A DNA stretch of 64,000 bases from Methylosinus trichosporium OB3b (lineage in GTDB: Bacteria > Pseudomonadota > Alphaproteobacteria > Rhizobiales > Beijerinckiaceae). A program made the position numbers and the translations under genes. Below are positions 25,407 through 46,047 of the stretch, in pieces. How positions within the stretch are numbered: position 1 is the first letter of the stretch; each line of letters opens with the position of its first letter. A model generated the notes under the pieces. The model had not been told where the DNA came from. It saw only the letters and a list, made by a program, of their open reading frames with translations, and ran no database searches. The DNA is taken from the NCBI RefSeq assembly GCF_002752655.1, contig NZ_CP023737.1, positions 3,930,001-3,994,000 on the forward strand, given 5' to 3'.

Positions 25407-27062
25407 ATGGACCGCTTCAATCAGCTTCGCGACAATCTGATCGGGCTCGGACCGAGAAAGCTCTCCGCTCTCGCGCTCATCTTCACGCTGGTCCTGGCGA
25501 TCACCGGGCTCGGCGCCTATTACGTCTCGCGGCCCGATTTCGAGGTGCTCTATTCAGGGCTCGACCGCGAGGATGTGAGCCGCATCGGCGCCGTGCTCAA
25601 ATCCTCGGGCGTCGCCTTCGACATCAATCCGGAGGGCAACGCCGTGCTCGTGCGCTACGGGCAGACGGCGCAGGCGCGCATGCTGCTCGCCGAGCGCGGC
25701 CTGCCGCAGAGCGCCAACGCCGGCTATGAGCTGTTCGACAAGGTCGGCTCGCTCGGCCTCACGTCCTTCATGCAGGAGGTGACGCGCGTGCGCGCGCTCG
25801 AGGGCGAGCTCGCGCGCACCATCCAGCTCATCCGCGGCGTCAAGGCTGCGCGCGTGCATATCGTGCTGCCCGACGAAGGCTCGTTCCGCCGCGTGCGCCA
25901 GCCGCCCTCCGCCTCGGTGGTGATTCGCACCGAGAGCCCCGACGATTCGAAAGCGGCGCAGGCGATCCGCCATCTCGTCGCCGCCTCCATTCCCGGCATG
26001 ACGGTCGATCAGGTGACGGTGCTCAACACCGACGGCATGCTGCTCTCGGCCTCCGATGGCGATGCGACCGATGCGGCGCCGGCCAAGACGCTGACGCTCG
26101 AGAAGACAGTCTCCAAGGACATACAGGACAATATCCGCCGCACCCTCACCCCTTATCTGCGCCTCGCCAATTTCCAGGTCAGCGTGCGCGCGCGGATCAA
26201 CACCGACCGCAAGCAGACCAATGAGACGATCTTCGATCCGGAATCGCGCGTCGAGCGTTCGGTGCGTGTGGTGAAGGAGAACTCCACCTCGCAGAACAAC
26301 AGCACGAGCCAGGCCGCCAGCGTCGAGCGCAACGTCCCGCAGGAGAAGCCTCAGGCGGGCGGCGAGGGCAAGCAGTCGAACGACGAGAACAAGAAGAGCG
26401 AGGAGCTCACCAATTTCGAATTGTCCACGAAGACGGTCACCACGGTGAGCGGCGGCTACACGCTCGAGAATCTGTCGATCGCCGTTCTCGTCAATCGCGG
26501 GAGCCTCGCCGGCTCCGGCAAGGATGCGCCGAAGCCGGAGGCGCTCGAGCGCCAGCTCAAGGAGATCGAGCAGCTCGTCGCCTCCGCCGCCGGCGTGCGC
26601 AAGGACCGCGGCGACACGGTCAAAGTCTCGGCCGTCGATTTCGCCATCAACGAGAACGACCTCGCCCCGGTCGAGCCGGCGGGGTGGAGCGAGGCCCTCA
26701 CCCATCAGCTCGGCTCGGTGATCAACGCCGGCGCGCTGATCCTGGTCACGCTTCTTCTCGTCTTCTTCGGCCTGCGTCCGGCCTCGCGCGCTCTGCTCGC
26801 GGAGGCGCCGGCGCCGATGGAGACGGCGCTCGCCGATGATGTCGGGCCGCCGCTGCTCGGCGCCGAGCCCTCCATCGAGCTGCCGTTCGCGCCGATGGAG
26901 ATGCCGCAGTTCACGGGGCAGATGGACACAGGCCTCATCGAGGACATCGGCGGACGTGAGAAATTCAACCAGCAAAAGAAGCTCGAGCAGCTCATCGAGG
27001 CCGATGAGATGCAGGCTGCGGCGATATTGAAGCAATGGATGTATGCCGAAGGGAGCGTGTGA
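25407..27062 (+). CDS. fliF: Flagellar MS-ring protein FliF
   Basis: FliF builds the inner-membrane MS ring on which the flagellum assembles. The 551-residue protein has two transmembrane helices (about 20-42 and 433-452), the periplasmic YscJ-like ring-building motifs (VLYSGLDREDVSRI, AARVHIVLPDEGSF) and a cytoplasmic C-terminus that binds FliG. An Asn/Gln/Ser/Lys-rich loop (about 290-335) interrupts the periplasmic part. Its stop overlaps the next start (TGATG), suggesting translational coupling. Confidence 0.97.
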   Translation: MDRFNQLRDNLIGLGPRKLSALALIFTLVLAITGLGAYYVSRPDFEVLYSGLDREDVSRIGAVLKSSGVAFDINPEGNAVLVRYGQTAQARMLLAERGLPQSANAGYELFDKVGSLGLTSFMQEVTRVRALEGELARTIQLIRGVKAARVHIVLPDEGSFRRVRQPPSASVVIRTESPDDSKAAQAIRHLVAASIPGMTVDQVTVLNTDGMLLSASDGDATDAAPAKTLTLEKTVSKDIQDNIRRTLTPYLRLANFQVSVRARINTDRKQTNETIFDPESRVERSVRVVKENSTSQNNSTSQAASVERNVPQEKPQAGGEGKQSNDENKKSEELTNFELSTKTVTTVSGGYTLENLSIAVLVNRGSLAGSGKDAPKPEALERQLKEIEQLVASAAGVRKDRGDTVKVSAVDFAINENDLAPVEPAGWSEALTHQLGSVINAGALILVTLLLVFFGLRPASRALLAEAPAPMETALADDVGPPLLGAEPSIELPFAPMEMPQFTGQMDTGLIEDIGGREKFNQQKKLEQLIEADEMQAAAILKQWMYAEGSV

Positions 27063-27700: not shown

Positions 27701-28842
27701 GCGAGGAAAAAGAAGCCGAGATCATCTTCATCCGCAAGAACCACGGCGATCATGAAGAGGGACATCACGGCGGCGCCTGGAAAATCGCTTTCGCCGACTT
27801 CATGACCGCGATGATGGCCTTTTTTCTGGTGATGTGGATCATCAATTCCACGTCGAAGGAGACCAAGGCGGCGATCGTCCAATATTTCAATCCGGTGCAG
27901 CTCGTCGATTCCAATCCCGCGCACAAGGGACTGCGCGATCCCAAGGATGGAGGGCAGGGCAAGAGCGAGAAGCCGACGGCCGCAACGCAGAAAGAACATT
28001 CGGGGGCCGCCCCCGAGAGCGACAAGGACGCGCCGCAGCGCGAGGCGGCGTTGCTCTTCGATCCGATCACGACGCTCGACGAGATCGCCGGTCCCGGCAA
28101 CACGAAAGAGGGCCAGACGGAGCAGGCGCCGCCGATCTTCGGCGATCCCTTCGACCGCAGCGGGCGTGGCGTCGGCTATGTCGAGCCGCATGTCGAGGAG
28201 AGCGGCTCGCCCGACAAGGCGAGCGAGACGGAGCGGGCCGAGGAGCGCGCCAAGCCGGCGTCCTCGACGCCGCCGACGAGCGCCAAGACGATGACGCGCC
28301 AGCAGCGGCAGGCGGCGGCGACAGCCGCGGCCGACGAGAAGGCCAAAGCCGAGGAGAAGGCCAAGGCGGAAGCCGCGCAGCTCGCCGCGACGCGCGCCGC
28401 GGTCGACAGAATCGCCAAAGCGGAAAGCGCGAATGCGCAGCCGGGTCCGCATGTCGAGGTGACCGAGACCGCGGAAGGATTGCTGATCAGCCTCACCGAC
28501 GACGCGAATTTCTCCATGTTCGCGATCGGCTCGGTGAAGCCGAAGCCGCAGCTCGTGCGCATCGTCGGCCAGATCGCCGGCGTGCTCGCCAAGCAGCCCG
28601 GAGAGGTCGAGCTGCGCGGCCATACGGACGCGCGATCCTATAAATCCAAGGTCTACGACAATTGGCGCCTCTCGGCCGATCGCGCCAACATGGCCTATTA
28701 CATGCTGCTGCGCGGCGGCCTCGCCGAGAAGCGCGTCGTCAAGATCGCCGGCTACGCCGACCGCAATCTGAAGGCGCAGAAGGAGCCGCTCGCCGCCGTC
28801 AATCGACGCATCGAAATTCTCGTGCGCAAAGGCGGGGCGTGA
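27697..28842 (+). CDS. motB: Flagellar stator protein MotB
   Basis: MotB anchors the stator to peptidoglycan and carries the proton-binding aspartate of the motor. The 381-residue protein has a His-rich cytoplasmic start, one transmembrane helix with the essential Asp34 in AFADFMTAMMAFFLVMWII, a long Lys/Ala/Glu-rich linker (about 80-245, including an EKAKAEEKAKAEAA helix), and an OmpA-like peptidoglycan-binding domain with VELRGHTDAR and NWRLSADRANMAYYMLL. Its partner motA is 14 kb downstream in this window. ATGA overlap with the gene before and TGATG overlap with motC. Confidence 0.97.
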   Translation: MSEEKEAEIIFIRKNHGDHEEGHHGGAWKIAFADFMTAMMAFFLVMWIINSTSKETKAAIVQYFNPVQLVDSNPAHKGLRDPKDGGQGKSEKPTAATQKEHSGAAPESDKDAPQREAALLFDPITTLDEIAGPGNTKEGQTEQAPPIFGDPFDRSGRGVGYVEPHVEESGSPDKASETERAEERAKPASSTPPTSAKTMTRQQRQAAATAAADEKAKAEEKAKAEAAQLAATRAAVDRIAKAESANAQPGPHVEVTETAEGLLISLTDDANFSMFAIGSVKPKPQLVRIVGQIAGVLAKQPGEVELRGHTDARSYKSKVYDNWRLSADRANMAYYMLLRGGLAEKRVVKIAGYADRNLKAQKEPLAAVNRRIEILVRKGGA

Positions 28843-29975
28843 TGCGCGCCGCGTTGGGTCTCGCCGCGGCGCTGTCGCTGTGGAGCGGCGTCGTCTGCGC
28901 GCAGGCCGACGAGTTCGTCGATCTGGTGCGCAAGCTCACCGGCCTGCAGGACGGCATGGCGCGCGGCGCGGCGACCGCGCGCGCCGCGATACCGGCGCAG
29001 GTCGAGCGCATACAGACGGCGATCGCGACGGCCGAGGCCGACAGTTGGAAGGAGCGCGCCAACGGCCGCGCGGCGGCGACCTATCTCCTCGGCGGCGGCT
29101 CGCCGCGCGCCATTCGCAAGATCTTCGACGCGAATCTCTTCTCTGATGCGGACCGGCCGCTCATCGACGCCAGCCTCGCTTATGCGGAAGGGCGCAGCCG
29201 CGACGCCATGCCGATGTTCGCGCAGATCGATCCGAAGGAGCAGCCGGCGACGCTCGGCGGCCATCTCGCTCTGGTGCGCGGCGGGTTGTTGATCGGCTCC
29301 GACAATGCGCGGGCGCGCGAGCTGCTCGATCTCGCGCGACTGCTCATGCCGAGCTCGCTCGTCGAGGAGGCGGCGCTGCGGCGCGAGGTCGCGGTCGTCG
29401 ATCCGCTGCAGGACGCCGCCAAATTCCTTTTGCTGGCGCGCCGATATGTGGCGCAATATTCGCGCTCGCCCTTCGCGCGCAATTTCTGGGGCGAGGCGCG
29501 CGCGGCGACGATTCGCGTCGCATTGGACATCCCCGAGCGGCAGCTGGGCGAATTTCTGGCGCTGTTCGACGCGACGCCGGCTGCGACACGCTTCGATCTC
29601 CATATGACCATCGCGCAGAACGCCATCCTGCATGGACGCCCTGCGCTCGCGGCTCTCGAGACCGATCGCGCCGCGACGCTCGCCGACACCCATCAGGCCA
29701 AGGCGCGCGTCGCGCTCAACCGCGCGGCGCTGACGGCGCTCGGCGGCGATTTCGAAGCGGCGGCGAGCGAGTTCGCCGCGCTCGACGTCAGCTCTCTCGA
29801 GCGCGGCGACAAGGAGCTGCGCGCGGTCGTCGCCGGCGCGATCGATCATTTGCGGCTCTCACCGGAGGCCGCCGAAAAGACGATGTCCGCGCGCGACGAG
29901 CTGCCCGTCGAGCGAGCGGCGCGCCAGGCCCTCGACGATTCCGAAATACTGCTGCAAAAGACGGTGCAAAAATGA
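28842..29975 (+). CDS. motC: Chemotaxis protein MotC
   Basis: MotC is a periplasmic protein of rhizobial flagella that associates with MotB and is needed for motor rotation. The 377-residue product starts with a signal peptide (MRAALGLAAALSLWSGVVCAQA) and is otherwise helical, with segments typical of the family: AATYLLGGGSPRAIRKIF, ARRYVAQYSRSPFARNFWGE and IPERQLGEFLALFDATPA. Its position between motB and fliK is diagnostic. It overlaps motB by one base and fliK by four. Confidence 0.93.
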   Translation: MRAALGLAAALSLWSGVVCAQADEFVDLVRKLTGLQDGMARGAATARAAIPAQVERIQTAIATAEADSWKERANGRAAATYLLGGGSPRAIRKIFDANLFSDADRPLIDASLAYAEGRSRDAMPMFAQIDPKEQPATLGGHLALVRGGLLIGSDNARARELLDLARLLMPSSLVEEAALRREVAVVDPLQDAAKFLLLARRYVAQYSRSPFARNFWGEARAATIRVALDIPERQLGEFLALFDATPAATRFDLHMTIAQNAILHGRPALAALETDRAATLADTHQAKARVALNRAALTALGGDFEAAASEFAALDVSSLERGDKELRAVVAGAIDHLRLSPEAAEKTMSARDELPVERAARQALDDSEILLQKTVQK

Positions 29976-32900
29976 ATCTCGCTTCGTTGCTGTCGAGCGT
30001 CGCCGCCGATCAGCTCATGCGCGCTCGCGCATCCGGCTCGCCGCGCGGCGTTCTCGACGACAGCGCAGCGAGCGCATCCGACTTCGGCGCCGTGCTCTCC
30101 GGGCTCGATGAGACGGCGGGCGCCGCCGAGCCGCAGGCGCCCGCCGCACGGATCGACGGCGAAACGGAGGAGGGCGCCTCCGATGAGCCGATCGCCGCAA
30201 AGGACGCCGATCCGCCGGCCGCCGAGGCGGCGCCGACGTCTCCGCCGCTTGCGCTAGAGAGCGCGGGCGATCTCTCTTTTGTCTCGAGCGTGCTGGCGCC
30301 GACCTTCGCGCCGCCGCCGCCTGCCGCCGAACGGGACGCTCCGGCCTCGGCCTCGGCCTCCGCTTCCGCGGCCGAGACGCCGTCCCGTCGGTCCGCGCCC
30401 GCAGAGAAGACCGCTTACGCTTCGGTGTACGCATCCACATCCACATCCACATTCGCATCCGCCCGCGTCGAGCCGACGCCGCTCGCCGACGCCGAGGACT
30501 CGACGGCGCCCGCGCGCTTCGCGCCGCCCTCACGGCGAGAGGGCGCGCGCGCGACCCATGCGGACCCATCGGCGCCCGCATCCGAGACGCCGAGCACCGG
30601 CGAACCGCCCGCCGCTCGCTCCGTCCCTAGCGCGACAGTGGCCCGGAGCGCCGAGGCGAAGCCGCGTCAGGCGAAGCTCGAGGCCTCCGCCGTCGCCGCC
30701 GCGCCGCAGGGCCGCGCGACGACCGAAACGGCGCCGAGCTCCCGCGCCGCCGCCGCGCCCGTGGCCACGACGCGGCCCAGCGCCGCTTCGTCGGCGGCGA
30801 AGCCAAAGCAGAGCGCTGCTTCCGCGCCGAACCGAGTCGAGCAGAGCGTCCCCCCGACTCCGATCGCCGCCGCGACGCCGGCCGTCGAATCGGATCGTCC
30901 TGCGTCCACTGCGCGCGTCCGTTCGGCTCTCGCCGAGACGACCGCCCGCCCCGTCTCGGCGACGCCGAGCGCCAGGGCGACGGCCGCGGCCGTCGCGCCT
31001 GTCGCCGAGCGCTTCGCCGCGAGCGCGTCATCTTCCGCCGGGCGAACTCTTCCCGGCGTCACGGTCGTCGAGAATGCGTCGCCGAGCGCGGCCGCCCTCG
31101 AAACCTCGAACGTCGCCGCACCGTCCACGTCGCAGCGAGCGGGTCGCTCGACATCCACGGTCGCTCCCGCATCGGCGAACCCCGAACTCGTCGTGGCGTC
31201 GGCGCCGCGTGAAACGGAGGTCCGGACAGCATCCCCGACGCCGCCGCTCACGGTGGCGAGCGACGAGAGAGCCGAGCGGACGCCCGTGGTCGCATCATCA
31301 AAGGGATCGAGCATCGACGAGACGGCGCGCGCGAGCGCCCCCGTCGAGTCGCCGCCCGTCCCGTTCGAGGCTCCCGAAACGAGCGCGCCCTCCGCGGCGC
31401 CGGACTCGGCGCAGCCCTCTGCGCCGGAGCTGGACAAATTCGCGAGCGCCACGCAGCGCGTCGAGTCGCAGCGGGCGGTCGAGAACGGAACGCGCCCCGC
31501 TGAACGGCTTACCGCGCCGAGCGCCGCCGCTTCGTCCCTCAGCGCCCTGCAGGCCGGCGCGGACCGTCCGGTTTCCACGTCCCTCGATTCGCTGATCGCG
31601 ACAGGCTCCGCCGTGGTCGCCGGGGCCGCGTCGGAGCCAGCCAGCGCGCCCGCGCCGAGCGCCGCGTCGTCCCGCAGCGCCCCGCCGGCCGGCGCGGACC
31701 ATCCGGCTTCCACGTCCCTCGCCTCGACGGCGCGCTCCGACGCGGCCCCGGCGACCATGGCGGCGCCTCTCGCGATCAGCGACGTTCCGAGCGCGAGCGC
31801 GCCCGCGCCGAGCGCCTCCGCTGCGTCCCGCAGCGCCCAGCCCGCCGGCGCGGACCGTCCGGCTTCCACGTCCCTCGCCTCGACGGTTCGCTCCGACGCG
31901 GTCCCGGCGACCACGGCGGAGCCTGTCGCGATCAGCGACGTTCCGAGCGCGCCCGCGCCGAGCGCCGCCGCTACTTCCCGCAGCGCCCCGCCCGCCGGCG
32001 CGGATCGTCAGGTTTCCACGTCCCTCGCCTCGACGGCTGGCTCTGACGCGCCTCCGGCGACCACGGCGGGGTCTATCGCGATCAGCGACGTTCCGAGCGC
32101 GCCCGCGCCGAGCGCCGCTTCATCCCGCAGCGCCCCGCCGGCCGGCGGGGATCGTCCGGCCTCCACGTCCCTTGCCTCGACGGCTGGTTCTGACGCCGCC
32201 CCGGCGCCCACGGCGGAGCCGGTCGCGGTCAGCGAGGCTCCGCGGACAACCGCGGCGAGCGACGTTCCTTCGTCCCGCGGCGCGCCCTCCGGGGCGGATC
32301 GTTCCGTTTCCGCGTCCACTCCCACGTCGGCCTGGTCCGACGCCGCCCCGGCGCCCACGGCGGAGCCGGTCGCGGCCAGCGAGGCTCCGTGGACAACCGC
32401 GGCGAGCGACGTTCCTTCGTCCCGCGGCGCGCCCTCCGGGGCGGATCGTTCCGTTTCCGCGTCCACTCCCGCGCCGGCCTGGTCCGCCGCCGCCCCGGCG
32501 CCCACGGCGGAGCCGGTCGCGGTCAGCGAGGCTCCGCGGACAACCGCAGCGAGCGACGTTCCTTCGTCCCGCGGCGCGCCCCCCGGGACGGATCGTTCCC
32601 TTTCCGCATCCACTTCCGCGCCGGCCTGGTCCGACGCCGCCCCGGCGCCCACGGCGGAGCCGGTCGCGGTCAGCGAGGCTCCGCGCACAACCGCGGCGAG
32701 CGACGTTCCTTCGTCCCGCGGCGCGCCCTCCGGGGCGGATCGTTCCGTTTCCGCGTCCACTCCCACGTCGGCCTGGTCCGACGCCGCCCCGGCGCCCACG
32801 GCGGAGCCGGTCGCGGCCAGCGAGGCTCCGCGCACAACCGTGGCGAGCGACGTTCCTTCGTCCCGCGGCGCGCCCTCCGGGGCGGATCGTTCCGTTTCCG

Positions 32901-35900
32901 CGTCCACTCCCACGCCGGCCTGGTCCGACGCCGCCCCGGCGCCCACGGCGGAGCTGGTCGCGGCCAGCGAGGCTCCGCGCGCAACCGCAGCGAGCGACGT
33001 TCCTTCGTCCCGCGGCGCGCCCTCCGGCGCGGAACGCGTCGCTACCGTCCCCGTCGCCTCGACGGCTCGGATTGACGCCGCGCCTCCGAGCACGGTGGAG
33101 CCTGTCATGGTCCGGCAGGCCCCGATCTCCACCGCGCCGAGCGCGGCTTCGTCGTCCAGCGTGTCGCCCTCCGGCGCGGATCGTCCTGTTTCCGTGTCCA
33201 TCGTTCGGTCCGAGACTGTGAGCGCGGCGCAGCCGGCAGCGGTTCGAGAGGCTGCGAGCACGCCGGCGCAGGCTCCTCGACCGGATCGCGCCGAAGCGCC
33301 ATCGACGGCTCGCACTGCTGCAATCACCCCGGCCGCCGAGCCCAGCTACGCCGCCGAGGCGCCGCAGGAGCCGCCGGCTTCCGTCGACGCATCGTCGATT
33401 CGGGCCGCCGATCCGCCGATCCGAACGGAGACCAGCCGCCCGCGAGCGTCGGCCACGAGCTCGTCCGACATGCCGCCGAACGAGGACGCCCCGAAGACGA
33501 GCGCGACTCCGGCGCGCATTCCGGCCGAGCGTGACACCCCGCTCGCGGCCTCGATCGACTCGAAGCTTCCGCAACCGCCTGCCGCGACCAGCGAGCAGCC
33601 GAGACTTTCCGACCGGCCCGTCGCCACCGATTTCCGGTCAGCCTCGCGTTCCTCGACTTCGCCGACGGTCGACGCGAGCGCCACGCCGAACGTCGATGTT
33701 ACGCCTGCCGCGACGCGAGCGGCTGCGCCAGCCGAAATGCGAGCGCCCTCCGCGCCAGAGTCGGCCGTCCTCGCCGAAGCTTCGCCGCCAGCTGCCGAGG
33801 TCCCGTCGGCGCCGCGGGCGACCTTCGTCTCGAGGACGTCGCAACAGACCGCCGCAGCTGCGCCGCAGACGCAGGCAAAAGGTGCGGCGGAGACGATTTC
33901 TTCCGCGCCCCTCGATTCTTCCGCGCTACCAGAGCCGGTCGTCGAAGCGGCGGCCGCCGTTCCGCGGCAGTCGGCGGCTCCAGTTGTGAATCGCTCTGCC
34001 ATCGTCGACTCCGGCGCAGCGTTCGAGAGCCGTCCTGCGACGGTTGTGGAGAGCGCTCGTCCCGCGGCGAACCCGGCTGTCGCCGCGGCTCCGACCGCAG
34101 GGGCGCCAGCGAATGTGACGACCGAAGCGTCGGCTCCCGCCGCGCGCGAGGCGACGATCGATGTCGCGCCGCCGAGCGCTCCGCTGTCCGGTTCCGTGTC
34201 GAGCCCGGAGCCGCGCGCAACCGCGCCGCAGTCCGGAGAGAGCGCGCCGGCGAGCGAATTGCCGGCTCGTTCCACGGCCTCGCCACTGTGGCAGAATGCG
34301 ACCGCCTCCGTCTCGTCGCAGAATGCGCCGGCCGGGCCTTCCATGACCGCGGCGCCTTCTGCGGCCGTTGAGCCCGAAGCTCACACCGGCTCGACCGTGT
34401 TGGCGTCGACTCCCCGCCAGAGCGCCGCGCCTTCGACTATTTCCGAGGCGCGCCCCTCCGAGCCGGCCGCAACAATGTCCCGCGCGACCGCCGAGGCGCG
34501 GCCTGGGATCGACAGCGCCGCGCCGAGCGCCGTCGCCGCGTCGTCCACGGTCGTTCCTCCTTCCGTAGAGGTCCGCGCTTCTTCCGCGCCGGCTGAGAGC
34601 GCGCCGCCCGTTGTCGATCGCTCGCGACCTGTCGCCGCCGTTTCTCCGACAGCCACCGCCGCCGCCGTCGAGGCCGGGGATGCGGAGGCGACGATCGCCG
34701 CAGCGCGCACGCCTTCCAGCCGCGTCGATCCGCCGGCCATTGCGTCACGGCCGGCTGCGTCGTCGCAGGTCGATGTGACGAAGCAGGCGGAGCCTTCGGC
34801 CGCCGCGACGCCTCCGGCGGAGGTCGCTTCCATCGACGGGGCTCAGCCATCCGCCGCGCCCGAGCGATCAACCGCCACCACGCCCGCCCCGGCGGCTCCC
34901 CAGGCGACCCCCGCCCCGGCGGTTCCCCAGGCGCAGCCGAGCCAATCGCAGTCGAGCCGCGACGCCGAACCGGCGTCGCCCGTCGCTGCGGAAACCGTTC
35001 GACCGCGCGCCGCCGCTCTTGCCCAGCCGAAGGCCGAGGTGACGGAGCCTGCCACGGCGAACGCGGCGCCTCTCGTCGAGGCCGCCGCGACGCCGGCGTC
35101 GGCCAAAGCGAGCGACCCTGTCGCGAGTCCCGCGTCGGTCTCGTCTCCCTCCGCAACGGCGAGCGCGCCGGCGGCGACCGAGCCTGTCCATGACGACGGG
35201 CTGCTCGCGCTGCTGCGCTCGATCCCGGCCGGCCGGCTCGCAGCTCCCTCCACCGTCGCGCGACCGCAGAGCCGGGAGGATGCTTCGCGCTCCGCACGTC
35301 CTGCGGGCTCGGCCGGCGAGGCGGCGCGATCCTTCGACCTCGCCGCGGCGATTCCGTCGCTGATCAGCGACGCGCCACGGCCGTCCTCCGCCGCGAGCCC
35401 CGTCCTCGATCTGCCGCGCAGCGATGCGCCCGACGCCGACGACACGACATCGGCGCCGCCCCTCGAGGCCGCGGACTTCGCCGCGGTCTCCTCGACATCC
35501 CAGCCATCGGCCTCGCCGTCGCCCCGGCTGACCGAAGCGACTGGCGTGGCGTGGACGCTTCCCGCCGCGCTCGCCGCGTCGCGGTCCGTTCCTGCGTCCG
35601 CGGAGGTCGAAAGCTCGCCCGATGCGACGCCGAAAGAGGAGATCGTCGCTACGCCGCTCGGCCGCGTCGATCTCTCGGCGCCGACCGCGCAACCCGCTCC
35701 GGCGATGGCGGCGCTGCTGGTCCCGCAAGCGCGCAGCCTGCTCGCACAGGATCAAAGCGGGGCAGCGCCGGCGACAGCGACGCGGCGCGCCGCCGACGCC
35801 GCGCCGCGCGCAACGTCGAATGTCGTCAAGTCGATGACGATCGAGCTCGCGCCGGAATCGCTCGGCGCCGTCGTCGTGAAGATGAAGCTCGTGCATTCCG

Positions 35901-36247
35901 GCGTCGAGATGAAGATCAGCGTGCGCTCGTCGGAAGCGTTGAACGAGCTCGAATCCTCGCGCGACGCTCTGGTCGCGGCGATGCGGTCGGCCGGCTGCGC
36001 CATCGACGGCTGCACGATCCAAATCGCTGCGCCGGCCGCGGACGGCGCGCAAGCGCAGGCCGCTGGACAGAGTTTCGACTCGTCCGCCAATGGCGCGAAT
36101 AGCGAGCGACGCGACGTCGCAGGAGAAGGAGCGGGCGATGGCCAGGGGACCGGCGGACGACGACGCGAGAGCGAGCGCGACGACGGCGCGGCGGAGAGCG
36201 TGGCTCGGCGTTCTGTCGATCGTCGCAGCGGCGGCGTCTATCTCTGA
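29972..36247 (+). CDS. fliK: Giant hook-length control protein FliK (MotD)
   Basis: FliK is a secreted ruler that measures hook length and switches the export gate (FlhB) to filament substrates. In rhizobia the gene after motC, once called motD, was shown to be fliK. The C-terminal Flg_hook domain (about residues 1952-2035) is clear: SMTIELAPESLGAVVVKMKL, VEMKISVRSSEALNEL, ALVAAMRSAG. The protein has 2,091 residues, against roughly 400-700 in most bacteria. Nearly everything before the domain is Ala/Ser/Pro/Thr-rich, and residues ~545-1080 are tandem repeats, with six exact 49-residue periods at 741-1034. Codon phase and GC3 stay consistent with translation throughout. Its end overlaps the transglycosylase gene by 110 bp. 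Confidence 0.9.
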   Translation: MNLASLLSSVAADQLMRARASGSPRGVLDDSAASASDFGAVLSGLDETAGAAEPQAPAARIDGETEEGASDEPIAAKDADPPAAEAAPTSPPLALESAGDLSFVSSVLAPTFAPPPPAAERDAPASASASASAAETPSRRSAPAEKTAYASVYASTSTSTFASARVEPTPLADAEDSTAPARFAPPSRREGARATHADPSAPASETPSTGEPPAARSVPSATVARSAEAKPRQAKLEASAVAAAPQGRATTETAPSSRAAAAPVATTRPSAASSAAKPKQSAASAPNRVEQSVPPTPIAAATPAVESDRPASTARVRSALAETTARPVSATPSARATAAAVAPVAERFAASASSSAGRTLPGVTVVENASPSAAALETSNVAAPSTSQRAGRSTSTVAPASANPELVVASAPRETEVRTASPTPPLTVASDERAERTPVVASSKGSSIDETARASAPVESPPVPFEAPETSAPSAAPDSAQPSAPELDKFASATQRVESQRAVENGTRPAERLTAPSAAASSLSALQAGADRPVSTSLDSLIATGSAVVAGAASEPASAPAPSAASSRSAPPAGADHPASTSLASTARSDAAPATMAAPLAISDVPSASAPAPSASAASRSAQPAGADRPASTSLASTVRSDAVPATTAEPVAISDVPSAPAPSAAATSRSAPPAGADRQVSTSLASTAGSDAPPATTAGSIAISDVPSAPAPSAASSRSAPPAGGDRPASTSLASTAGSDAAPAPTAEPVAVSEAPRTTAASDVPSSRGAPSGADRSVSASTPTSAWSDAAPAPTAEPVAASEAPWTTAASDVPSSRGAPSGADRSVSASTPAPAWSAAAPAPTAEPVAVSEAPRTTAASDVPSSRGAPPGTDRSLSASTSAPAWSDAAPAPTAEPVAVSEAPRTTAASDVPSSRGAPSGADRSVSASTPTSAWSDAAPAPTAEPVAASEAPRTTVASDVPSSRGAPSGADRSVSASTPTPAWSDAAPAPTAELVAASEAPRATAASDVPSSRGAPSGAERVATVPVASTARIDAAPPSTVEPVMVRQAPISTAPSAASSSSVSPSGADRPVSVSIVRSETVSAAQPAAVREAASTPAQAPRPDRAEAPSTARTAAITPAAEPSYAAEAPQEPPASVDASSIRAADPPIRTETSRPRASATSSSDMPPNEDAPKTSATPARIPAERDTPLAASIDSKLPQPPAATSEQPRLSDRPVATDFRSASRSSTSPTVDASATPNVDVTPAATRAAAPAEMRAPSAPESAVLAEASPPAAEVPSAPRATFVSRTSQQTAAAAPQTQAKGAAETISSAPLDSSALPEPVVEAAAAVPRQSAAPVVNRSAIVDSGAAFESRPATVVESARPAANPAVAAAPTAGAPANVTTEASAPAAREATIDVAPPSAPLSGSVSSPEPRATAPQSGESAPASELPARSTASPLWQNATASVSSQNAPAGPSMTAAPSAAVEPEAHTGSTVLASTPRQSAAPSTISEARPSEPAATMSRATAEARPGIDSAAPSAVAASSTVVPPSVEVRASSAPAESAPPVVDRSRPVAAVSPTATAAAVEAGDAEATIAAARTPSSRVDPPAIASRPAASSQVDVTKQAEPSAAATPPAEVASIDGAQPSAAPERSTATTPAPAAPQATPAPAVPQAQPSQSQSSRDAEPASPVAAETVRPRAAALAQPKAEVTEPATANAAPLVEAAATPASAKASDPVASPASVSSPSATASAPAATEPVHDDGLLALLRSIPAGRLAAPSTVARPQSREDASRSARPAGSAGEAARSFDLAAAIPSLISDAPRPSSAASPVLDLPRSDAPDADDTTSAPPLEAADFAAVSSTSQPSASPSPRLTEATGVAWTLPAALAASRSVPASAEVESSPDATPKEEIVATPLGRVDLSAPTAQPAPAMAALLVPQARSLLAQDQSGAAPATATRRAADAAPRATSNVVKSMTIELAPESLGAVVVKMKLVHSGVEMKISVRSSEALNELESSRDALVAAMRSAGCAIDGCTIQIAAPAADGAQAQAAGQSFDSSANGANSERRDVAGEGAGDGQGTGGRRRESERDDGAAESVARRSVDRRSGGVYL
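31604..33220 (+). repeat. Tandem repeat array inside fliK
   Basis: Units begin at 31604, 31739, 31895, 32045, 32192, 32339, 32486, 32633, 32780, 32927 and 33074. The early ones are 135, 156, 150 and 147 bp and diverged; from 32192 to 33073 there are six copies of exactly 147 bp that are almost identical in DNA; the last (from 33074) is degenerate. Each 49-residue unit reads approximately SDAAPAPTAEPVA, SEAPRTTAASDVPSSRGAP, SGADRSVSASTP. All lengths are multiples of three, so the frame is kept. Confidence 0.93.
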
Positions 36248-36785
36248 CTCGCGCGCCGCCGGCGCGCCGCCACAGAACATCTGCGAGCGCGAGATGATCC
36301 ATGCGGCCAATGAGAACGCCGTGCCGCTCGCCGTGCTCTACGCCGTGGCGTTGACCGAGACCGGCCAGAGAGGCGCGCTCAACGCCTATGCGATGAATGT
36401 GCAGGGGCGCGCCGTGTTCAGCGCCGATCTGCGCGAGGCGCTGGAGCGCTTCGCGATGGCGCGGCGCGGCGGCGCCGTGCTGATCGACATCGGCTGCATG
36501 CAGGTCAATCACCATTATCACGGCGCTAAATTCGCGTCGGTGGAGGCGATGTTCGATCCGCGCCTCAATGTCGGCTATGCCGCTAAGTTCTTAAAGGCGC
36601 TGCGCGCCAGCGAAGGCAGCTGGACCAGCGCGGTCGCGCGCTATCATGCGGGTCCCGGCAATGCGCCGGCGCAGAAGACCTATGTATGCGCGGTGATCGC
36701 CAATATGGTGGCGAGCGGCTTCGGCTCCTGGACCGACGCGGCGCGAGATTTTTGTCGCCCGCGCGACCGCGCGGCGGCGCGTTGA
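36138..36785 (+). CDS. Flagellum-associated lytic transglycosylase
   Basis: The 215-residue protein has an N-terminal export signal (RRRAWLGVLSIVAAAASI) and an SLT-type lysozyme-like domain: the catalytic Glu is in YAVALTETG, followed by NAYAMNVQGRAV, the family motif IDIGCMQVNHHYH, FDPRLNVGYAAKFL and VARYHAGPGN. It probably cuts peptidoglycan so that the rod can cross the wall, as for the transglycosylases encoded beside flagellar genes in other alphaproteobacteria. The ATG at 36138 has AGGAGAAGGAG just upstream; another ATG at 36090 is possible. It overlaps fliK's end in a different frame. Confidence 0.88.
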   Translation: MARGPADDDARASATTARRRAWLGVLSIVAAAASISDSRAAGAPPQNICEREMIHAANENAVPLAVLYAVALTETGQRGALNAYAMNVQGRAVFSADLREALERFAMARRGGAVLIDIGCMQVNHHYHGAKFASVEAMFDPRLNVGYAAKFLKALRASEGSWTSAVARYHAGPGNAPAQKTYVCAVIANMVASGFGSWTDAARDFCRPRDRAAAR

Positions 36786-44970: not shown

Positions 44971-46047
44971 ATGAGCGAGTCGGAAGACGACGACTCTCGA
45001 ACAGAAGAAGCGAGCGAGAAAAAAATTCTCGACGCGCTGGAGCAAGGCAAGACGCCTGTCGCGCGGGATGTCGCGGTCGCCGTCTTGTTCCTCGGATTTC
45101 TCCTCTGCGTCAGCTTCGTCATCGAGACGGTGGGGCCACGCCTCGCTCTTTCGATGGAGCTGATGCTCTCCAATGTCGGGCAATTCTCGCTGGCCAATGG
45201 CGCCGACGCGTTCATGCAGTCGCGCGCCGTCGCCGAGGAGATCGGCCGCTTCCTCGCGCCGATGCTGTCGATCTTCATGATCACCGGACTGCTCTCCGCG
45301 GCGATGCAGGGCGCGCCGCGCCTCGTCTTCAAGCGCATCGAGCCCGATCTCTCGCGCATCTCGCCGCAGCAGGGATTGAAGCGCATCTTCGGCGTCACTG
45401 GAGTGGTCGAGCTCGTGAAGTCGATCGCTAAGATCGCCGTCATCGGCGGCGCGGTCGTGTTCTCGCTCACCGTCGATCGCGACCTCATCATCGATGCGAT
45501 GCGGATGGAGCCCGCGCATCTGCCGTCGCTGCTGCTGAAGCTGATCATTCGGCTCACCAGCGTCGTCTGCATACCGGTCGTGCTGATCGCGCTCGCCGAT
45601 CTCGCATGGTCGAAATTCAAATGGCGGCGCGACATGCGCATGAGCCGACAGGAGATGAAGGAGGAGCACAAGCAGTCCGAAGGCGATCCTCTCGTCAAAG
45701 CCCGCATGCGCTCTCTGGCGCTCGAGCGCTCCCGCAAGCGTATGATGGCGCAGGTACCGCAGGCGACGATGGTGATCGCCAACCCGACTCATTACGCGAT
45801 CGCGCTGCGCTATGTGCGTACGGAAGGCGGCGCGCCAACGGTCGTCGCCAAGGGAAAGGATCTCGTCGCCCTCAAGATAAGGGAGATCGCCGAGGCCCAT
45901 GGCGTGCCGGTGCTCGAGCGTCCGGAGCTCGCACGCGCGATGTATAATCATGTCGAGGTCGACCAGATGATTCCCTCGGAGTTCTATCGCCCCGTCGCCG
46001 AGCTCATCCACTTCCTGCAGAGCACTCGCGGCTCATCCGCGCGTTGA
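44971..46047 (+). CDS. flhB: Flagellar export gate protein FlhB
   Basis: FlhB is the export-gate component that switches substrate specificity after contact with FliK. The 358-residue protein has four transmembrane helices (about 35-55, 90-110, 145-165, 185-205) and a cytoplasmic domain with the autocleavage motif NPTH in VIANPTHYAIALRY, followed by GKDLVALKIREIAEAHGVPV. The unusually large FliK in this window is its expected partner. Confidence 0.97.
   Translation: MSESEDDDSRTEEASEKKILDALEQGKTPVARDVAVAVLFLGFLLCVSFVIETVGPRLALSMELMLSNVGQFSLANGADAFMQSRAVAEEIGRFLAPMLSIFMITGLLSAAMQGAPRLVFKRIEPDLSRISPQQGLKRIFGVTGVVELVKSIAKIAVIGGAVVFSLTVDRDLIIDAMRMEPAHLPSLLLKLIIRLTSVVCIPVVLIALADLAWSKFKWRRDMRMSRQEMKEEHKQSEGDPLVKARMRSLALERSRKRMMAQVPQATMVIANPTHYAIALRYVRTEGGAPTVVAKGKDLVALKIREIAEAHGVPVLERPELARAMYNHVEVDQMIPSEFYRPVAELIHFLQSTRGSSAR

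Follow-up and report, generated by a model that had tools for sequence, protein, structure and literature searches.

How long can a flagellar hook ruler become, and does the hook follow it? The question is raised by a 64,000-nucleotide stretch of the genome of Methylosinus trichosporium OB3b (contig NZ_CP023737.1, positions 3,930,001–3,994,000 of the forward strand; hereafter the window), in which the gene for the hook-length ruler FliK forms a single open frame of unusual size. The initial annotation, made from the sequence letters, described a FliK of about 2,091 residues with a Flg_hook end and a greatly enlarged middle, and considered a far longer hook among the possible consequences. Its description of the gene stands: what is encoded is a FliK with both ends retained and a hugely enlarged middle, and the frame is no accident of annotation. 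The consequence for the hook, by comparison, is an extrapolation.

FliK termini and the expanded ruler

The product is almost certainly a genuine FliK with a duplicated ruler (Table 1), and is real as an extreme variant of an already known kind of protein. Residues 1949–2019 match the Pfam family Flg_hook with 36.4 bits (curated cut-off, 29.8), and this is the sole Pfam domain found in the protein. The Flg_hook region contains the motif E-L-x-P-x-x-L-G, kept in nine genes, and the last five residues of the chain are GGVYL. At the opposite terminus, nine congeneric FliKs share the motif M-x(4)-L ... F-x-x-[LV]-L-S-x-[LV]-D, and residues 1–60, which matched no family model, probably comprise the export signal together with the segment that contacts the hook and its cap. 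Across the whole genome (5.18 Mb), one Flg_hook match, fliK itself, and one FliF were obtained; a second FliK able to perform the switch was thus not found.

The ruler between these ends, residues 61–1877, amounts to about 1,800 residues, and its reported richness in Ala, Ser and Pro is borne out by contents of 26%, 16% and 14%, respectively. Runs of at least 12 residues free of Pro and Gly hold 16% of the ruler residues. An AlphaFold model of residues 724–1066, made from a single sequence and weak as evidence, had a predicted local distance difference test score (pLDDT) of 39 and was devoid of secondary structure.

Table 1 Features of fliK and of neighbouring flagellar genes, in window coordinates
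Feature	Positions	Strand	Description
fliK	29972..36247	+	Single open frame, 2,091 codons plus stop; 2,091 residues, ~204 kDa
N-terminal conserved segment, residues 1–60	29972..30151	+	Aligns across nine congeneric FliKs
Expanded ruler region, residues 61–1877	30152..35602	+	Ala/Ser/Pro-rich; predicted disordered
Tandem array of twelve tiles, residues 528–1115	31553..33316	+	Tiles mostly 49 residues (147 bp)
Array core, six 49-residue copies	32141–33022	+	From tile-by-tile DNA comparison
Flg_hook switch domain, residues 1949–2019	35816..36028	+	Pfam PF02120, E = 4.7e-9
Gly/Arg-rich tail, ending V-Y-L	36029..36244	+	V/L-Y-L end in 9/9 congeneric genes
motC-like gene	28662..29975	+	NCBIfam PRK12798 models, all below their own cut-offs
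Transglycosylase SLT gene	36090..36785	+	Pfam SLT, 33.1 bits; longest frame opens within fliK, out of frame with it
fliF	25407..27062	+	551 residues, ordinary size; Pfam YscJ_FliF
flhB, export-switch partner of FliK	44971..46047	+	358 residues, ordinary size; Pfam Bac_export_2, 366.8 bits

An open frame maintained across the genus

The middle regions of the nine complete congeneric fliK genes (that of OB3b, denoted G000, included) contain no stop among 9,610 codons of frame +1, against approximately 104 expected from dinucleotide-preserving shuffles, which rules out a chance open frame in GC-rich DNA. All six frames were counted: stops are present in each of the other five in every one of the nine middles, so that every antisense frame of every middle is interrupted. 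The OB3b gene does contain antisense open frames, of 415, 439 and 484 codons, such as G+C-rich DNA gives.

Gaps in frame-blind DNA alignments were multiples of three in 24 of 24 cases for the species pair G002/G005, in 35 of 38 for G005/G008 and in 17 of 22 for G002/G008; the DNA of G000 and G009, with 42 of 85 such gaps, is too diverged for the test. The absence of stops, taken with the 24 in-frame gaps of the first pair, indicates that the long chain has been kept translatable. Differences between the G002 and G005 middles number 300, 291 and 395 at codon positions 1, 2 and 3, and as this third-position excess is only mild, the case for coding rests on frame and stops rather than on purifying selection.

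FliK size in Methylosinus and beyond

The comparison of FliK length with relatedness that the initial annotation had called for shows great size in eight of the nine genus members with a complete gene. With the ATG taken at the conserved N-terminal motif, the proteins comprise 2,091 (G000), 1,946 (G009), 1,526 (G008), 1,448 (G003), 1,372 (G002), 1,309 (G005), 981 (G001), 931 (G004) and 472 (G007) residues. The OB3b gene is therefore not a single freak, and great FliK size is a trait of the lineage. The assembly of a further member, G006, is broken inside fliK (end of L081, start of L024), with the same twenty residues of a repeat on both sides of the break; the repeat unit there is a different and longer one, roughly 120 residues by eye, and the protein would comprise ~538 residues if the shared twenty represent one copy, and more otherwise.

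Of 149 genomes sampled from the family, 115 gave a match; the 143 matches from other genera had a median frame of 568 codons and a maximum of 1,141, a statistic copied by hand from the match table; frames in the family, order, class and phylum tables run from stop to stop and overstate protein length. One further giant was found among 100 relatives, in G034, a member of another family of the order. Its FliK of ~2,048 residues (L029, 4533–10679) resembles that of OB3b in size and in its repeat-bearing middle, here rich in Ala, Pro and Thr and free of in-frame stops, but differs in having a 117-bp repeat unit; fliK is followed by a flgD-like gene, recognized by eye. The evidence for coding is weaker in G034, where two antisense frames hold one stop each and one antisense frame extends over 1,836 codons. 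Given the different repeat unit and the different lineage, this giant is most likely the product of an independent expansion. The G034 genome also contains a second Flg_hook frame, of 746 codons.

Samples of the order (169 genomes), class (385) and phylum (170) yielded, among the matches listed, no frame above 1,324 codons besides that of G034. The OB3b gene itself is absent among the matches listed for these samples, and because giant FliKs tend to be the weakest matches, outside those listed, their rarity beyond the family is less certain; the match tables of the family sample and of the 100 relatives are not marked as truncated in this way. Intermediate Flg_hook frames of other genera among the matches listed measure 1,324 (G651:C39), 1,156 (G581:C96), 1,141 (G488:C18) and 1,101 (G593:C2) codons from stop to stop, and are possibly further expanded rulers.

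Growth and drift of the ruler

Tandem Repeats Finder detected a period of 147 bp at positions 31709–33200 of the window, an array missing from the initial annotation. Of its twelve tiles, the six core copies are 85–98% identical in DNA; tiles 2–4 are 83–89% identical to one another and 69–79% to the core, and tiles 1, 11 and 12 are 46–69% identical to all others. Such a gradient of identity is typical of an array expanding in its middle and decaying at its edges, and the ruler has grown through tandem duplications that preserve the frame, its sequence then drifting fast. Other repeat units are found in G009 (165 bp) and G008 (144 bp), G005 has short-period repeats only, and no repeats above threshold were detected in fliK of G001, G002, G003, G004 or G007.

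About 60 residues at the start and most of the final 165 are conserved across all nine FliKs. Between G000 and G009, identity is 60% over residues 1–60, 37% over the middle and 67% over the last 215 residues, with FliF 91% identical; between G002 and G005, it is 50% over the middle and 88% over the last 215 residues, with FliF 96% identical. With the ends conserved and the middle divergent, the frame, the composition and the great length of the ruler are kept, and its sequence is not.

In four pairs drawn from the two main clades (G000 or G009 against G008 or G001), the middles were no more alike than shuffled sequences (595 for G000/G008, compared with 578 ± 21 for shuffles), and common ancestry of the expanded middles between the clades was thus not detectable by this comparison. 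Within clades, every tested pair of middles scored above all shuffles, except G008/G001. The two-clade pattern may reflect a single expansion, scrambled later, or two separate ones; the FliF tree, fully supported on 2 of its 11 inner branches, does not settle the number.

Predicted hook length

It is an evenly balanced proposition that the giant FliK acts as an ordinary secreted ruler and that the hook is a few hundred nanometres long; a hook of more than ~200 nm falls just short of even chances. FliK would be exported intermittently during hook growth, its N-terminal segment carrying the export signal and touching hook and cap, and its C-terminal domain would change export from hook to filament by acting on FlhB. 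A disordered chain in the narrow channel would span roughly 0.2 nm per residue, and the C-terminal domain would dwell at FlhB for long enough only once rod and hook together approximate the span of the chain, at which point the switch would be made. In a current model, presented in PMC13344023, FliK is likewise exported intermittently, and its C-terminal domain acts on FlhB during the pause in export that comes with full hook length.

Salmonella FliK proteins of 363–785 residues are reported to produce tightly controlled hooks of 42–135 nm, at 0.2 nm per inserted residue (PMC6126814). Extrapolation of this calibration would predict a hook of 392 nm in OB3b and a range of 68–392 nm across the genus. 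A polymer estimate for a 2-nm channel and Kuhn lengths of 0.7–1.1 nm (both assumed) gave 0.18–0.24 nm per residue; assumed channel widths of 1.5–2.5 nm gave 0.15–0.29 nm per residue, which brackets 0.2, and 322–612 nm for the chain at full length. Even if perfectly packed, 204 kDa would take up ~79 nm of a channel assumed to be 2 nm wide. Should the two ends have to span the channel, compaction could therefore shorten the chain greatly but not indefinitely, and an ordinary short hook would require near-complete packing if the ends must reach tip and base at once. FlgE, the hook subunit, has a match span of 412–415 residues in all ten genus genomes searched, so that only the number of subunits would change with hook length. 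Flagella and motility are part of the published description of Methylosinus species (PMC7285482), and on that description giant FliK coexists with working flagella.

Several points weigh against a long hook set by this protein. In Salmonella, hooks longer than ~75 nm are reported to impair swimming (PMC6126814), and 40 residues added to the FliK linker to worsen switching (PMC6972891). The Salmonella calibration ends at 785 residues and used helical inserts, whereas the chain here is Pro-rich; both the hook and the full-length protein are predictions from sequence. One genus member, G007, has a FliK of merely 472 residues, and the rulers of G002 and G008 differ by 154 residues although their FliF proteins are 97.3% identical, which implies either a hook difference of ~30 nm between near relatives or weak selection on length. 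A C-terminal AlphaFold model of FliK (two-sequence input) had a pLDDT of 46, too poor to confirm the fold, and none of its 457 matches in the PDB reached E ≤ 0.001, the best being to proteins other than FliK. A PDB search with the single sequence matched no FliK chain, and an NCBIfam search with the whole protein gave no hit, FliK models included. A literature search, in a collection without most subscription journals and with some result lists incomplete, turned up no title or abstract opening on giant FliKs or on hook lengths in these bacteria.

Alternative readings of the long ruler

The main rival, for which the fast drift of both sequence and length speaks, regards the middle as a tolerated, near-neutral spacer in a protein of which only the two ends matter, with hook length set instead by timing, hook-protein supply or N-terminal binding to the hook, and the hook itself ordinary or moderate. 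This is judged possible, if on the doubtful side. It accords with the low identity of the middles relative to FliF in both pairs described above, with clade-to-clade similarity at the level of shuffles and with rapid length change between close species. GC-rich Ala/Pro repeats can, moreover, build up by slippage, and the shortest gene (472 residues) has the lowest G+C content, 0.610, among the eight congeneric genes with G+C values. A neutral spacer is less easily reconciled with the eight long genes, which keep frame, scarcity of hydrophobic residues and composition, or with excluded volume, which alone would fill the ~79 nm of channel calculated above. A linear read-out of ruler length has been reported both in Salmonella (PMC6126814) and in Yersinia (PMC3469391). 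Finally, if a costly export substrate of 2,091 residues had no effect, its shortening in one lineage or another would be expected; G007 could be that lineage, or its short FliK could be ancestral.

Cleavage of full-length FliK or internal initiation, leaving a short FliK to do the work, is improbable. No support for it was found in the sequence; a disordered chain would be prone to proteolysis, and Caulobacter FliK is reported to be a substrate of Lon (PMC8545394). Against such processing, the presumed export segment and the switch domain lie at opposite ends and are both conserved, a cut product could not measure, and the frame is open throughout.

Still less probable is a second job, in which the exported Ala/Ser/Pro chain would act outside the cell, at the surface, in rosettes or at a spore stage, and would be selected for length on that account. 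Methylosinus is described as forming rosettes and motile daughter cells (PMC7285482), and the composition may be likened to that of extracellular spacer regions; the middle, however, has no Pfam domain and little sequence conservation, and nothing ties it to another process.

An artefact, whether a misassembly or a GC-rich non-coding stretch called as a gene, has a negligible probability despite the antisense frames and the chance that the tandem array is misassembled by some copies, since the relatives' genes already refute it, with the same frame open in the assemblies of eight further species (seven at 931–1,946 residues), and since total loss of the array, 588 of the 2,091 residues, would still leave ~1,500.

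Comparison with known rulers

Salmonella FliK is reported to have 405 residues and to set a hook of 55 nm (PMC6972891, PMC6126814). It resembles Methylosinus FliK in serving a flagellar system and in carrying a Flg_hook-type C-terminal domain preceded by a distinct, in Methylosinus presumed, N-terminal region, whereas the Methylosinus protein is approximately five times longer and has a Pro-rich middle that is predicted to be disordered. In the engineered Salmonella series of 310–785 residues (PMC6126814), as in Methylosinus, ruler length varies and both ends are kept; the nine sizes here, 472–2,091 residues, are natural, and the largest lies 2.7-fold beyond the longest engineered variant.

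YscP of Yersinia enterocolitica, at 452–538 residues, is described as having internal repeats of 14, 25 and 46 residues that set its length (PMC3469391). The two systems are alike in that repeat number sets ruler length, and needle length is reported to scale with YscP (PMC3469391). In contrast to FliK, YscP belongs to an injectisome, is far smaller, and shows its variation within one species rather than among the members of a genus. The FliK of Caulobacter, which was formerly split with MotD (PMC8545394), is likewise alphaproteobacterial with a C-terminal Flg_hook domain, but its last five residues, LDIRI, which are implicated in function and degradation in that report, differ from the GGVYL found here.

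A natural series of rulers

It is proposed, with rather less than even confidence, that Methylosinus builds natural hooks of hundreds of nanometres (~0.4 micrometre in OB3b), with hook length as a fast-evolving trait set by a disordered ruler. If so, the ruler would measure by the span of its confined chain rather than as a rod, folded or helical; conservation would be limited to frame, composition and chain length, and repeat copy number alone would make the hooks of sister species differ by tens of nanometres. In the literature covered, the ruler rule has been tested to 785 residues and 135 nm, with engineered Salmonella (PMC6126814). The genus offers a natural series of nine FliKs with a hook subunit of nearly constant size, and bears on whether the rule extends approximately three-fold further, on whether disorder and a high Pro content are compatible with a measuring role and on the limit of hook length in a swimming cell. 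Long hooks are expected to buckle or misbehave. Should the hooks prove normal, the ruler rule has a limit, which would be equally informative.

Flagellar neighbourhood

fliK lies in a flagellar cluster, with fliF, motB-like and motC-like genes upstream and fliI, motA, fliM, fliN, fliG and flhB downstream. Its position directly after motC, as first described, is correct in that its ATG overlaps the stop of the motC-like gene (29972/29975; ATGA). The best NCBIfam model for the latter is named 'chemotaxis protein' (224.7 bits), one named MotC scores 151.8 bits, and no Pfam match was obtained.

That no other flagellar gene is enlarged holds, by frame length, for those scored, namely the window genes and FlgE. 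Frame lengths in the window are ordinary for FliF (551), FliI (446), MotA (289), FliM (380), FliN (123), FliG (340), FlhB (358), FlgB (127), FlgC (139), FliE (107), FlgG (262), FlgA (149), FlgI (366) and flagellin (303). The FlgE frame, of 413, lies outside the window (G000:C1:4171470-4172708). The MotB frame extends over 527 codons to the first possible start, but the true start probably lies further in: the match to MotB_plug does not set in before residue 159, and in G006 the gene has 387 codons from stop to stop.

FlgE of OB3b is 92% identical to that of G009 and 59–69% to those of the other eight genus genomes, for which FliF identity is 75–81%; the hook subunit thus diverges faster than FliF. 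In Methylosinus sporium 5, a promoter motif has been reported upstream of flagellar genes that include fliF and flgE (PMC12403871).

The transglycosylase SLT gene apparently starts within the 3′ end of fliK (36090–36247), where a probable signal peptide is encoded in the other frame (by eye), so that the fliK tail would be doubly constrained. The first 700 bases of L024 in G006 look alike by eye, with the SLT start again inside fliK.

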